The position numbers were made by a program, and so were the translations under genes. This document shows, one piece after another, positions 8,395 through 33,980 of a stretch of DNA of 34,088 bases. The DNA is from Acidobacteriota bacterium. GTDB lineage: Bacteria; Acidobacteriota; Thermoanaerobaculia; Multivoradales; Multivoraceae. The stretch covers positions 1-34,088 of the forward strand of contig QQVD01000070.1 in the NCBI GenBank assembly GCA_003388555.1. Direction: 5' to 3'. Numbering within the stretch: position 1 is the first letter of the stretch; each line of letters begins with the position of its first letter. The notes beneath the pieces were generated by a model. The model had not been told where the DNA came from and did no database searches. It worked only from the letters and a program-made list of their open reading frames with translations.

Positions 8395-8586
8395 CGGGGG
8401 TTGGGGATCAGGGGTTCGGGTTTAGGGATCAGAGAGTCGGGATCAGGGACTGGAAGTCAGAGCAGAGAGAGGAGAGGGGCCGCGCCCATCGCACTCCTGC
8501 GAGCCTCGTCCGCGCATCTGCCTCGAGCACACGTGCGGAGCGCCCCTTTTCCCTCGTCCCTCGTCCCTCTTCCCTTTTCCCTTCTG
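8395..8586 (-). repeat. Composite G-rich/core/C-rich intergenic element, copy A
   Basis: Lies between the convergent stops of the Nudix gene and the 8587-9342 gene. Read on the minus strand it starts AGCAGAAGGG with G-rich tracts, passes a core containing CTCGAGGCAG, then TCTCTCTGCTCT, and ends in C-rich tracts (CCCTGATCCC, CCCCAACCCC). The same order occurs at 11516-11831 on the plus strand. The first bases coincide with the TAG stop of the minus-strand gene. No gene is seen in it. Confidence 0.65.
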
Positions 8587-9672: not shown

Positions 9673-11514
9673 ATGAGCCACGCAGCATCCCGAAGCCAGC
9701 ACGACCCGCCGCGCCGCAGTGCGGGCCGGCACGTCCCGCACGGTGAGCTCGGAGGCCTGCTCTCTGCCCTCGCCATGCTCTCGCTGCTCGCGGCGATCGC
9801 GCCGCTGAGCGCCCAGTCGCAGGAGCCGCTGGAGGACGCGGTGCTCGATCGTGTCGACGTCGAGCTGGTGCTGGTCGACATGGTGGTCACCGGCCGCGGC
9901 GGCGAGCTGGTCACCGACCTGCGGCCCGAGGAGCTGCGCATCACCGACGACGGTCGGCCGGTGACCCGCTTCACCCTCTCCCCCCCTGGCCGGATGGAGC
10001 GCGCGGCGCGGGACCGCGAGTGGGCGGAGTCCGAGGCTGCCGTCGAGCTGCCCCAGGTGCAGGGCAACACGCTGGTCGTCTTCCTCGACGAGCTGCATCT
10101 GCGGCCGCCGAACCGCAAGCGGGTGCTCAAGCAGCTGCGCGAGGTGATCCGTCGCGGCATGGGCAGCAGCGACTCGGTGATGATCGTCAGCTTCGACGGC
10201 GAGGTGCGAGTGTTGCAGTCGCCGAGCCGCGACTTCGACGCCGTGCTCGACGTCATCGAGTCCGAGATGGACTCGGTGCGCTCGCCCATGTTGGCCCAGC
10301 TGGCGCGTCCCGAGGAGGCGATGCGGCTGATCGAGCAGTACTACAGCCAGGCGGCCACCGGCGGTCACGAGTCGAACCTCGGCGGCACGGCGCAGGACGA
10401 CCCCTGCGTGCAGATGGGGGCGCTGGCCCGCACCCACGCCGAGCAGGCGCACTCGGTGGTGCTGCGCTCGATCTTCGGCCTGCGCCTGCTGGTCGACTCG
10501 CTGGCGCCGATCGACGGTCGCAAGAGCCTGCTGCACGTCAGCGACGGCATCCCGACGACTCCGGGCAGCGAGGCGTACTCACTGGCGATCGAGCTGTGCT
10601 CGGACACCGGCGACTACGAGACCACGTCGATCCTCGCCAACCAGTCGTCGTGGGACGCCGAGGCGGCCTGGTCCGAGCTCGCCGAGTATCAGACCACCGA
10701 CGAGTGGCGCCAGCTCTCGGCCTTCGCCAACGCCTCGCAGGTCAGCTTCTTCGTGCTCCAGGCCTCGGGGCTCAGCGGCGCCCGCAACGCCGGCGTCGAC
10801 AACGTGCGGGTCACCGCCAACACCGAGGCGCTGCAGATCACCAACCAGCGCGGCGCGCTGCACTACATGGCCGACGAGACCGGCGGCGAGGCGACCTTCG
10901 ACACCAACGACTTCCGCCCCGCGATCGCGGCCGCGGCGAGCGACGCCGAGCGCGCCTACCAGATCGCCTTCGCGCCCGACCGGCCCGCCGACGGTCGCGA
11001 GCACGCCATCGCGGTCGAGGTGCTACGGCCGGGCGTCCGGGTGCGCCACCGCAAGAGCTACTTCGCCAAGCTGCCCGGGCAGGACCTCAACGACCTGGTG
11101 ATCTCGACCTTGGTGCTGCGCCGGGAGCAGAACCCGCTGCGGGTCGACCTCGGCCACGGTGAGGTGAGCGACGGTGAGCGCGGCGAGCGGCTGGTGACCC
11201 TCGAGGTGCGCGTGCCGCTGACCGAGCTCGCCCTGCTGCCGGTGGAGGACGAGATGCAGGGCTCGTTCACCGTCGCGGTGGGCGGCAGACTCTCCAGCGG
11301 CCGCTTCCTGCCGATCGGCCAGAAGACCCTCAGCGTGCGAGCCGCCGACGTCGAGGCGGAGAGCCAGAGCTTCCTCTACGAGGTCGAGATGGCGCTGCGC
11401 GGCTCCGAGGTGCAGCTCGCGGTGGCGGTGCGCGACGAGGTCGGCGGCGACGTGGCGCACCTGCTGCACACCATCGCGCTCGCCGAACCCGCGGCGGCGA
11501 CGTCGTCCGACTGA
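9673..11514 (+). CDS. VWFA-like secreted protein (acidobacterial type)
   Basis: 613-residue exported protein. A twenty-residue hydrophobic stretch (about 35-50, LLSALAMLSLLAAIAPL) ends in AQSQ, a plausible signal cleavage. The opening module VDVELVLVDMVVTGRGGELV then DLRPEELRITDDG is the hallmark of the acidobacterial VWFA-related family. The VWFA-like core begins near residue 135 with TLVVFLDELHLRPPN. There the metal-site motif DxSxS is replaced by DELHL, so metal-dependent adhesion is doubtful. The middle matches the family pattern (KSLLHVSDGIPTTPGS; LHYMADETGGEATFDTNDF; YQIAFAPD), followed by a beta-rich C-terminus. Role unknown; surface or periplasmic binding is likely. GGGAGA precedes ATG 9673. 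A G-rich repeat starts two bases after the stop. Confidence 0.85.
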   Translation: MSHAASRSQHDPPRRSAGRHVPHGELGGLLSALAMLSLLAAIAPLSAQSQEPLEDAVLDRVDVELVLVDMVVTGRGGELVTDLRPEELRITDDGRPVTRFTLSPPGRMERAARDREWAESEAAVELPQVQGNTLVVFLDELHLRPPNRKRVLKQLREVIRRGMGSSDSVMIVSFDGEVRVLQSPSRDFDAVLDVIESEMDSVRSPMLAQLARPEEAMRLIEQYYSQAATGGHESNLGGTAQDDPCVQMGALARTHAEQAHSVVLRSIFGLRLLVDSLAPIDGRKSLLHVSDGIPTTPGSEAYSLAIELCSDTGDYETTSILANQSSWDAEAAWSELAEYQTTDEWRQLSAFANASQVSFFVLQASGLSGARNAGVDNVRVTANTEALQITNQRGALHYMADETGGEATFDTNDFRPAIAAAASDAERAYQIAFAPDRPADGREHAIAVEVLRPGVRVRHRKSYFAKLPGQDLNDLVISTLVLRREQNPLRVDLGHGEVSDGERGERLVTLEVRVPLTELALLPVEDEMQGSFTVAVGGRLSSGRFLPIGQKTLSVRAADVEAESQSFLYEVEMALRGSEVQLAVAVRDEVGGDVAHLLHTIALAEPAAATSSD

Positions 11515-11515
11515 G

Positions 11516-11831
11516 GGAGCAGAAGGGGTCAGGGGTCAGGGGTCAGGGGAGAGGGAGCAGAAGGGGTCAGGGGTCAGGGGTCAGGGGAAAGGGAGCAGAA
11601 GGGGTCAGGGGTCAGGGGAGAGGGAGCAGAAGGGGTCAGGGGTCAGGGGTCAGGGGAACGGGAGCAGAAGGGGTCAGGGGTCAGGGGTCAGGGAGAGAGG
11701 AGAGCGTCTCACTCGAGGCAGGTAGCTCGAGCCCGATGCACCGCACGAACTGGCGCAGCAGCCTCCCGTCTCTCTGCTCTCTGCTCTTTCCCTAATCCCC
11801 AACCCCCAACCCCCAACCCCTAACCCCTTCC
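11516..11831 (+). repeat. Composite G-rich/core/C-rich intergenic element, copy B
   Basis: Fills the convergent gap after the VWFA-like gene. The G-rich arm (about 11516-11700) is five units of GGGAGCAGAA followed by GGGGTCA repeated 3, 3, 2, 3 and 3 times. A core of about 80 bases includes CTCGAGGCAG and TCTCTCTGCTCT. The C-rich arm (about 11783-11831) is made of CCCCAACC-type tracts. Both arms could form G-quadruplexes on opposite strands. Its right end runs into the last codons of the minus-strand gene and provides the TAG stop at 11820-11822. Confidence 0.8.
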
Positions 11832-25921: not shown

Positions 25922-26022
25922 ACGGATCGGTGGCTGTCCCGGCGCGGCGGTGTTCGGAGTCCGCCGTTGGCTACGGCGTGGAGGACGACCAGGCGGTGAC
26001 GTCGCCGGATTCGCCGAACACA

Positions 26023-26050
26023 CATCCCGCCCCTGAGAGGGTGCGGGATG
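26023..26050. terminator. Hairpin in repeat unit 1
   Basis: CATCCCGC pairs with GCGGGATG, with an inner CCCT/AGGG stem around GAG and one bulged T. It could terminate either convergent transcript. No T tract follows, so it would be an intrinsic terminator of the atypical kind or an mRNA 3'-end stabiliser. Confidence 0.5.
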
Positions 26051-26127
26051 GATTTCATCGAGAGTCCGTTGACGACTACGCCGTGGAGGACGACCAGGCG
26101 GTGACGTCGCCGGATTCGCCGAACACA

Positions 26128-26155
26128 CATCCCGCCCCTGAGAGGGTGCGGGATG
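26128..26155. terminator. Hairpin in repeat unit 2
   Basis: Identical to the hairpin 105 bases earlier: 8-bp outer and 4-bp inner stem, GAG loop. Confidence 0.5.
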
Positions 26156-26232
26156 GATTTCATCGAGAATCCGTTGACGACTACGGCGTGGACGAAGACC
26201 ACGCCGAGACGTCGCCGGATTCGCCGAACACA

Positions 26233-26260
26233 CATCCCGCCCCTGAGAGGGTGCGGGATG
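26233..26260. terminator. Hairpin in repeat unit 3
   Basis: Third identical copy. It lies 26 bases past the subtilase stop and so would be the first one met by the subtilase transcript. Confidence 0.5.
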
Positions 26261-26285
26261 GATTTCATCGAGAATCCGTTGACGA

Positions 26286-27734
26286 CTACGGCGTGGACGA
26301 AGACCACGCCGAGACGTCGCCGGATTCGAAGCCGTCGGCGAACAGTCCCAGGGCCTGGAGAGCTGCCGCCGCGTTGACCCGGCCGTAGCCGATCTCGAAG
26401 GAGTGGCCCGGCATGCTGCCGTTCCACATGTAGTTGTAGCCGCCGACCTTGTCGGCGGTGTCGCGCAGGATCTGGCGCGCGTCGACGTTGGCGAGCCCGG
26501 GGTCGAGCGAGAACATCAGGGCCACGATCCCCGAGACGATCGGAGCGGCGAACGACGTGCCGCTGCTGTTGGTGTAGCCGTTGCCGAGATTCAGCACCGG
26601 CAACGAAACGCCAGGAGCGGAGACGTCGAGCCCTGATCCGTGGTTGGAGAACGAGGCCTTGAAGTCGGAGGAGTCCGTCGCGCCGACCGCGATGACGCGA
26701 GCCAGCGAGCTCGGGAACCCGACGCTGGTGGAGGTGTCGTTGCCGGAGGCGCAGACGATGACCAGGCCGTAGGTGTCGTGCGCCATCTCGACGGCGGCCT
26801 CGATCGCGGCGCTGAAGCCGACGGTGAGGCTCAACTGCACGATGCGGGCGCCGTTCTCGGCGGCGTAGAGGATCGCGTCGTCGATGACCGAGCCGTTCGG
26901 AGCCAGGTCGCCGACGCCGGCGATCATCAGCTGGGCTCCCGGACCGTTCCAGCCGCCGGCGACACCGGCGTGGCCCAGGTTGTTGTGGGTCTTCGCGCCG
27001 ACCACCCCTGCGACCGCGGTACCGTGGAAGAAGCTGCCGGCACTGTTGTTGTCGCCGTCGCTGAAGTCGAAGCCCTTCCAGTCGTCGATGTAGCCGTTCA
27101 GGTCGTCGTCGATCCCGTTGCCGGTGCTGGGGTCGTCGGGGTCGGACCAGGCGTCCTCACCGGGGTTGAGCCACACGTTCTGGTAGACGTCGCCGCCCAG
27201 GCCGAGGTCCGAGTGGGTGAACTCGGTGCCGGAGTCGAGGATCGCGACCACCACGGCCGGCGATCCGGTCGTGCTGTCCCATGCCGTCTCGGCGTCGATC
27301 CGCGGCAGGTGCCACTGGCCGCCGTAGCCGGTGTCGTCGGGAATGGCCGCGAAGCCGACGTACTCGCCGCGCGTGGTCGGCTCGGCGACCCGCACCATGC
27401 CGCTCGAGGTGTATGCGTCCAGGGCGTCGAAGGGGTCGGTGCCCGGCTGCAGACGCAGGTCGATGAAGCCGGTGCTCGCCACCCGCAGCACCTCGACGCC
27501 GTGAGTGCGATGCAGCGCCTCCAGCGCGGCGTCCTCGACCCCCGGCGCCGGGAGGATGGTGATCACGTCGGGCAGCACCTCGAAGGAGCGGCCGTCCGGG
27601 TCGTGCTGCAGCCAACCGCCGGAGTCGCGGGTGAAGGTGCGCTCGCCCAGGGTCCGGGTCTGGGCGAGCGACGGGCCGGCGCCGACGGCGGCGGTCAGCG
27701 AGAGGGCGGAGAGGACACGGAGAGCTGAGTTCAC
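26286..27734 (-). CDS. Secreted subtilisin-like serine protease (S8) with FESGDVSAWS C-terminal tail
   Basis: 482-residue exported protease. Signal peptide: ALRVLSALSLTAAVGAGPSLAQ. A short propeptide-like region with beta strands (about 25-120) precedes the S8 catalytic domain, whose triad is visible: Asp167 in AILDSGTEFTH, His237 in FFHGTAVAGVVGA and Ser394 in GTSFAAPIVSG; the oxyanion Asn is likely in VCASGNDTS. The C-terminus ends DGFESGDVSAWSSSTP, a short tail that I recall on secreted proteins of several bacterial groups and that may be a sorting tag. GTG 27734 has GGGAGACCC ten bases upstream. TACGCT at 27775-27780 (minus strand) may be the -10 box. The 3' end is tandemly duplicated downstream. 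Confidence 0.92.
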   Translation of the reverse strand: MNSALRVLSALSLTAAVGAGPSLAQTRTLGERTFTRDSGGWLQHDPDGRSFEVLPDVITILPAPGVEDAALEALHRTHGVEVLRVASTGFIDLRLQPGTDPFDALDAYTSSGMVRVAEPTTRGEYVGFAAIPDDTGYGGQWHLPRIDAETAWDSTTGSPAVVVAILDSGTEFTHSDLGLGGDVYQNVWLNPGEDAWSDPDDPSTGNGIDDDLNGYIDDWKGFDFSDGDNNSAGSFFHGTAVAGVVGAKTHNNLGHAGVAGGWNGPGAQLMIAGVGDLAPNGSVIDDAILYAAENGARIVQLSLTVGFSAAIEAAVEMAHDTYGLVIVCASGNDTSTSVGFPSSLARVIAVGATDSSDFKASFSNHGSGLDVSAPGVSLPVLNLGNGYTNSSGTSFAAPIVSGIVALMFSLDPGLANVDARQILRDTADKVGGYNYMWNGSMPGHSFEIGYGRVNAAAALQALGLFADGFESGDVSAWSSSTP

Positions 27735-33851: not shown

Positions 33852-33980
33852 GGAGGGGTTGGGGGTCAGGGGTTGGGGGTTGGGGAGGCGGAAGGGATCA
33901 GGGATCAGGGATCAGGGGTCAGGGGTTGGGGATCAGGGATCAGGGGTCAGGGGTCAGGGGTTGGGGGTTGGGGAAGAAGG
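33852..33980 (+). repeat. G-rich tandem repeat block, copy C (arm only)
   Basis: Alternating GGGGTCA, GGGATCA and GGGGTTG units, like the arms of copies A and B, but with no core or C-rich partner in sight. Four or more G runs in close spacing could form a G-quadruplex. Confidence 0.8.

Follow-up and report, generated by a model that had tools for sequence, protein, structure and literature searches.

REP sequences and BIMEs, with their GTAG and CGTC families, are short dispersed palindromes that are mostly located downstream of genes and form tandem clusters; some REPs lie at the ends of coding regions, and the ends of GTAG REPs can supply TAG stop codons (PMC3733652). The repeat analyzed here, which we refer to as the tail unit, is likewise dispersed in many copies mostly at the 3' side of genes and forms tandem clusters. 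Unlike REPs and BIMEs, it has no constant GTAG or CGTC end, and its palindrome encodes a conserved protein tag of about 100 genes. Rickettsia palindromic elements, which are about 150 bp long, add an in-frame peptide to many unrelated proteins (PMC10969869). The palindrome of the tail unit is also read in frame in many unrelated proteins, but it is found at the extreme C-terminus together with the stop codon, in tandem, and on a tag that also occurs where the repeat is absent.

The MIRU repeats of Mycobacterium are tandem units of roughly 50–100 bp that are dispersed over the genome, lie beside or overlap the ends of genes and vary in number. The tail units resemble them in being tandem, dispersed, located at gene ends and variable in number, whereas MIRUs are not known to encode a shared protein tag. 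Elements that integrate into tRNA genes rebuild the 3' end of the gene that they enter, so that this host gene survives. The tail unit also carries a copy of its target end, but it is non-autonomous, has a size of about 100 bp, and its target is a repeated protein tag. Sorting tags of the PEP-CTERM type are short C-terminal motifs on many unrelated proteins, as is the tag studied here, although the ESGD tag is itself the end of the protein and is not followed by a transmembrane stretch or a basic tail.

The remaining comparisons concern systems with hairpins, reverse transcriptases or spacers. Integron attC sites have the boxes RYYYAAC and GTTRRRY at the base of their hairpin; neither box was present in any of 19 tail-unit hairpins, and the integron integrase TIGR02249 was found over cut-off in 6 of 13 genomes, with none in the genome under study (G000), none in G025 and one in G002, all three of which bear arrays. 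Diversity-generating retroelements and retrons depend on a reverse transcriptase, for which no RVT_1 match over cut-off was obtained in G000 and G025, with three in G002. Unlike in CRISPR, the spacers within an examined tail-unit array are alike, rather than different spacers between equal repeats.

Results

The array behind the subtilase gene

The window, by which we mean the whole analyzed stretch of 34,088 nucleotides (contig C52), contains a subtilase gene on the minus strand, the product of which ends in LFADGFESGDVSAWSSSTP directly before a TAG stop codon. The end of this gene is repeated downstream (Table 1), with a TRF repeat at 25971-26328 that has a period of 105, 3.4 copies and 96% matches, and with tag copies that start at 26327 (inside the gene), 26222, 26117 and 26012. 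The first-pass annotation had described three units of 105 bp; the repeat is real and has this period, but there are only two full 105-mers, and the third downstream copy consists of the tag end alone, without the spacer, followed by unique sequence. This distal copy is possibly the displaced original tail of the subtilase gene. The downstream copies were also said to be in the same frame, and all three indeed read as tag and stop, in the order ESGDVSAWSSSTP, ESGDVTAWSSSTA and ESGDVTAWSSSTP. The equal frame has no meaning for translation, since the seventh codon in frame after the TAG of the subtilase is a TGA, which rules out translational read-through into the repeats.

Table 1. Features of the subtilase locus and its array. 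Units are numbered from the gene to the distal end. Fold energies and z-scores versus shuffles refer to pieces of 105 nt for units 0 to 2 and to a piece of 57 nt (25957-26013) for the distal end. R1 is a model built from G000 hairpins.
Feature	Position	Strand	Fold energy (kcal/mol)	z-score	Evidence
Subtilase host gene (Peptidase_S8), 482 aa, C-terminus LFADGF-ESGDVSAWSSSTP	26286..27734	-			ORF 27734-26286, Pfam
Unit 0: the gene's 13 terminal codons and stop (26288-26286), then UTR arm of hairpin A and spacer with hairpin B	26223..26327	-	-60.8	-8.1	Fold
Hairpin A of unit 0: tag codons paired with 3' UTR	26271..26327	-			Fold, R1 match
Spacer of unit 0 with hairpin B (CATCCCGC...GCGGGATG)	26223..26270	-			Sequence, fold
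Unit 1: complete copy of unit 0	26118..26222	-	-60.8	-8.1	Fold, R1 match 26166-26222
Unit 2: diverged tag part (VTAWSSSTA), weaker hairpin A, near-identical spacer	26013..26117	-	-49.1	-3.8	R1 match 26061-26117
Unit 3: distal tag end, no spacer, no clear hairpin	25971..26012	-	-18.7	-0.4	R1 match 25956-26012

A 341-base stretch of the window was compared to its own genome and matched itself and mainly tag-end pieces, the sole longer match being that of bases 1-84 at C5:210580. Because mainly tag-end pieces were found elsewhere, the spacer of this array is nearly unique, and it belongs to neither of the two spacer families (T1 and T2) described below. No match to plasmid and phage sequences was obtained at E≤1e-5. 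The window also contains three related G-rich short tandem repeats of the GGGATCAGG / AGGGGTCA type (TRF; 8397-8449, 11513-11705 and 33854-33973), as well as a long GCCGTT / GCCGCC repeat at the start of the contig (1-280), with TRF scores of up to 240.

The tag and its host genes

The subtilase gene is not alone in having this tail. The pattern F-E-x-G-[DN]-xxx-W has 104 matches in the 6.8 Mb genome, with places given for 100 among the matches listed, as compared to none for the reversed pattern. At least four tag-like matches are located inside long frames, and a stop codon follows within 70 nt in 96 of 102 tags in the fetched DNA. A slightly longer tag pattern was matched in 37 of 60 genomes, including G000. 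The genus g2, which contributes 21 of the 60 genomes, had zero tag matches, while the other three genera of the family are tag-bearing.

Eleven host proteins were scanned against Pfam, of which three had no match and eight had domain matches (one subtilase, two reprolysin-like, three FG-GAP, one lactonase-like propeller and one beta-helix). A comparison of forty 60-residue tag ends to NCBIfam and Pfam revealed no model of the LFxDGFESGDxSAW tag. Three of the forty matched choice_anch_Q in NCBIfam (best E 1.9e-4), and single ends matched a few other domains; choice_anch_Q is a name for proteins with varying C-terminal anchors. No paper containing DGFESGD or DGFESG as letters was found in a literature search, and searches on the tag itself or on how this group sorts proteins by their C-termini returned nothing on the tag. 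Within the literature and family models searched, the tag seems to be undescribed. One locus (L211, G000:C3:198228) has a V before ESGD, an early stop codon at the expected Trp and a frame of 85 aa, and looks like a decayed tagged gene.

Extent and start point of the tandem arrays

For the array counts, 104 tags were collected with a looser pattern and a filter on the residues before Glu, which is a different set from the 104 pattern matches above, and an array was called if the unit match score was above the 99th percentile of swapped pairs. Tandem arrays were identified behind 20 of the 34 tags in G000 with a stem of at least 7 bp, the other 14 being array-less, and behind only one of the 70 other tags. 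The first-pass annotation had named units of variable copy number behind several tagged genes as support for its interpretation; such arrays follow many tagged genes in this genome and a few in two other genera.

At 19 of 23 loci in three genera (G000, G002, G025), the start of the repeats lies 0–2 nt from the Glu codon of ESGD, a start being accepted if the next unit matched at least 6 nt from the Glu codon and no more than 2 nt leftward of it. The match runs were at least 10 nt long at eleven loci (including C7b); the short runs of 6–9 nt at nine loci are weak by themselves, because the search sought the best match to the Glu codon of the gene. Exceptions among the 23 loci are C7b, which matches 7 nt to the left, and C31L, C38b and C5b, for which the second start is doubtful (matches of 2–3 nt). 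TRF, which is not anchored to the tag, recovered 14 arrays on tags and four elsewhere in the same pieces. In seven of the 14, the repeat begins at position -1 or 0 relative to the Glu codon, and in the other seven it begins 16–56 nt later, the tag part being diverged in these later-starting arrays. At 12 of the 23 loci, the nine bases that open the next unit are identical to those of the gene itself (swap mean 1.0, maximum 5; unit starts set by hand), although concerted evolution within the arrays could be an alternative cause of such matching cores.

An intact tag is encoded by 14 of 39 downstream units in 22 arrays and has been lost from 25, as judged by a strict pattern and with hand-set unit starts. 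At least one intact downstream tag with its stop codon is kept at 9 of the 22 loci. The assembled distal ends of the arrays consist of a tag copy or its first bases rather than of spacer, as seen by eye and uncounted. Seven tags, picked by hand from the list, are located less than 500 bp from a contig end, as compared to 1.13 expected; these represent six genes, as the tags on C8 and C35 belong to one gene. Because of this enrichment, some arrays are probably longer than assembled. The longest arrays are at C3:184781 (L125), with 6.9 copies according to TRF, and at C8:206737-207217 and C73:89-508, with five spacers each. Contig C73 may be a continuation of the array with which C74 ends.

Spacer families and probable exchange between genes

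Two main spacer families, T1 and T2, were identified at ten and nine loci with the looser threshold, and G025 has its own spacer type, common to several genes as judged by eye. Spacer pairs with a score of at least 34 accounted for 49 of 5356 pairs, as compared to 9 of 5253 for upstream DNA. Among 18 hosts of shared spacers, BLASTP gave a single match, between two short untrimmed frames (42 and 49 aa) that still hold the tag; these two hosts were left out of the conclusion, and the nine-member cluster was covered except for one locus. Two host pairs share a Pfam domain across the families, namely reprolysin-like (L085, L123:1924) and FG-GAP (L124, L122).

The suggestion in the first-pass annotation that genes with the same tail recombine is supported by this finding of a tag and a non-coding spacer common to genes without BLASTP similarity, and by two further observations. 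The first is codon usage: the Gly codon of the tag is GGA in 9 of 10 T1 members and in 13 of 94 others, and the Gly codon of DGF, which is upstream of the unit start, is GGG in 7 of 10 T1 members and in 9 of 94 others. These shared rare codons point to copying within the tag, and since the GGG signal lies upstream of the Glu start, an exchange inside the tag fits better than an insertion exactly at Glu. The second is the gene at C7:148233, in which the junction codon GTG equals the end of the array spacer (DG-V-ESGD).

Covariance models of the spacers (R2 and R3) were used to search for further copies. All 17 R2 matches at E<1e-4 were in tag arrays or on contigs that start with array units, and two of three weaker matches (C9, C2) were away from listed tags. 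R3 gave 23 matches, of which one weak match (C34) was not near a listed tag and five were on C73, an array fragment without a listed tag. Free-standing spacer repeats were rejected, as the matches off listed tags were limited to these weak ones (C9 and C2 for R2, C34 for R3).

These data bear on the most ordinary explanation, a local tandem duplication in which slippage or unequal exchange would copy the gene end and its terminator hairpin at each locus, with no movement between genes. It agrees with array sequences and periods that are specific to each locus and with units that are up to 100% alike within an array, and strong hairpins are known to provoke slippage. Local duplication does not predict, however, that spacers are common to genes without BLASTP similarity, that the two spacer models find little outside the tag arrays, that distal tag copies, among them the one in the window, are without the spacer which a duplication would carry along, or that the repeats begin at the same codon in three genera despite differing letters. 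We consider it an unlikely explanation, albeit one to be taken seriously.

The hairpin in the tag codons

A unit of about 95–105 bp consists of hairpin A, which comprises the last 13 codons, the stop codon and the UTR arm, and of the spacer. Some tags, a minority, form one long palindrome with the 3' UTR from their Glu codon onward. The statistics were based on 96 of 102 tags, the other six being dropped because the stop was more than 70 nt away. Stems between tag and UTR that reach 10 bp or more and contain no more than one mismatch were found in 14 of the 96 tags, as compared to 0.45 on average and never more than 2 in 100 UTR swaps, and inner stems of at least 8 bp within the codons were present in 17 of 87 (swap mean 4.7, maximum 10). 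A test by minimum-free-energy folding (52 of 96; swap mean 42.5, maximum 52) was replaced by that of stem length, because it was too weak in a G+C-rich genome. Compensatory changes in 19 hairpins (alignment A2) amounted to 39 cells versus a shuffle mean of 12.9, a count that is not independent, because the rows were picked for long stems and pairing.

The stop codons of the 19 hairpins are TAG in 12, TGA in six and TAA in one, with GTAG at the stop in seven, and their first bases are GAGT in 15, GAGA in two, and GAAT and GAAG in one each. CGTC is limited to some of the T1 spacers, in which it stands ahead of the next unit.

The pairing of tag codons with their own UTR, which is far more frequent than with swapped UTRs, could mean that hairpins A and B are a selected structure of the 3' end of the mRNA, such as a terminator or a stabilizer over the stop codon, with the arrays as a side effect. 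Three of the four pieces of the window fold far below shuffles, and of the copies in the window that of the gene has the strongest hairpin A, with the tag arm replaced in many downstream units elsewhere, both of which agree with an RNA element. We nevertheless regard this as improbable, since 70 of 104 tags in G000 have no stem of 7 bp, no Rfam family was matched by the window stretch at E≤0.1, and the common start of the repeats and the shared spacers would be left unexplained.

Tags and arrays in relatives

In three relatives from one family of the order (G052, G049, G057), 20 regions were fetched and 19 tags were found, none of which had a 7 bp stem or an array. In G025, where the regions were chosen as R1 matches, 7 of 19 tags had a stem of at least 7 bp and 2 of 19 had an array. 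The R1 model, which may miss hairpins of other sequence, had matches at E≤1e-6 in 5 of 72 genomes of the order, including G000, to which 49 of the 56 matches belong. The subtilase homolog in G052, which is 56% identical, ends with ESGDTSAW and a stop codon, and no repeat was seen by eye in 330 nt. Similarly, an array gene in G002 has a 55% identical homolog in G000 with the tag and without an array. Further homolog pairs with the tag, with and without an array, and indeed all compared homologs, are 36–57% identical at the protein level, and no filled and empty pair of one locus was found at the DNA level.

The array-less homologs bear the tag anyway, and all 19 sampled tags of the three relatives are array-less, which argues against the cassette of alternative C-termini suggested in the first-pass annotation, in a form in which recombination with the gene would alter the fate of the protein. 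Although 9 of 22 loci keep an intact downstream tag with stop and the junction codon at C7:148233 equals the array spacer end, such a store is very improbable, because only the 14 of 39 downstream units counted above still encode an intact tag by the strict pattern, and these encode nearly one and the same tag.

Discussion

We favor, with slightly better than even confidence, the interpretation that the array exemplifies a dispersed REP- or MITE-like palindromic repeat that resides on a protein tag, is exchanged within the tag and is amplified in tandem. The tail unit has about 95–105 bp and two hairpins, and its first 39 bp encode the tag end ESGDxSAWSxxTP of about a hundred genes, followed by the stop codon, the UTR arm that folds back to form hairpin A, and the spacer with hairpin B. 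In this model, units would spread among tagged genes via recombination inside the tag, and amplification in place would give rise to arrays of the type (tag-spacer)n-tag. Since each unit supplies an equivalent tag end and stop codon, the host gene would lose nothing, and the tag could serve as a safe landing site, as do the 3' ends of tRNA genes for integrating elements that restore them. The units are probably selfish or neutral, and the hairpins may double as the 3' end of the mRNA. Because the fold fades distally and 25 of 39 downstream tags are lost, selection for the tag presumably acts on the gene copy.

A more far-reaching proposal, which we put forward tentatively and consider rather unlikely as a whole, is that of a tail-exchange system, in which a non-autonomous palindromic element would land on a genome-wide tag, restore the tag and stop codon, move between tagged genes and leave behind (tag-spacer)n-tag arrays for recombination with the gene, the C-terminal tags of many proteins being rewritten at the DNA level. 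If the favored interpretation is right, a DNA repeat would have its harmless niche in a repeated protein motif, both using the same 39 bases, and the locus would offer a testable case of C-terminal tags that spread to unrelated genes as well as a system in which to seek a hairpin-acting enzyme.

The agent of the exchange may be a hairpin-acting enzyme, if any, or plain homologous recombination. Y1_Tnp had three low-scoring matches over cut-off in G000, two of which were on C21 at 100285 and 108905, with R1 matches on this contig at 53387 and 96146 only. The Y1 transposase matches are not discriminating, since 50 of 60 genomes have them, and no transposase gene was seen with units on its flanks. 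Apart from the tail units, a second dispersed palindrome, about CCTCCCCCTTCAGGGGGAGG, is found repeatedly behind genes in the intergenic DNA of G000 (e.g., L086, L100, L209).
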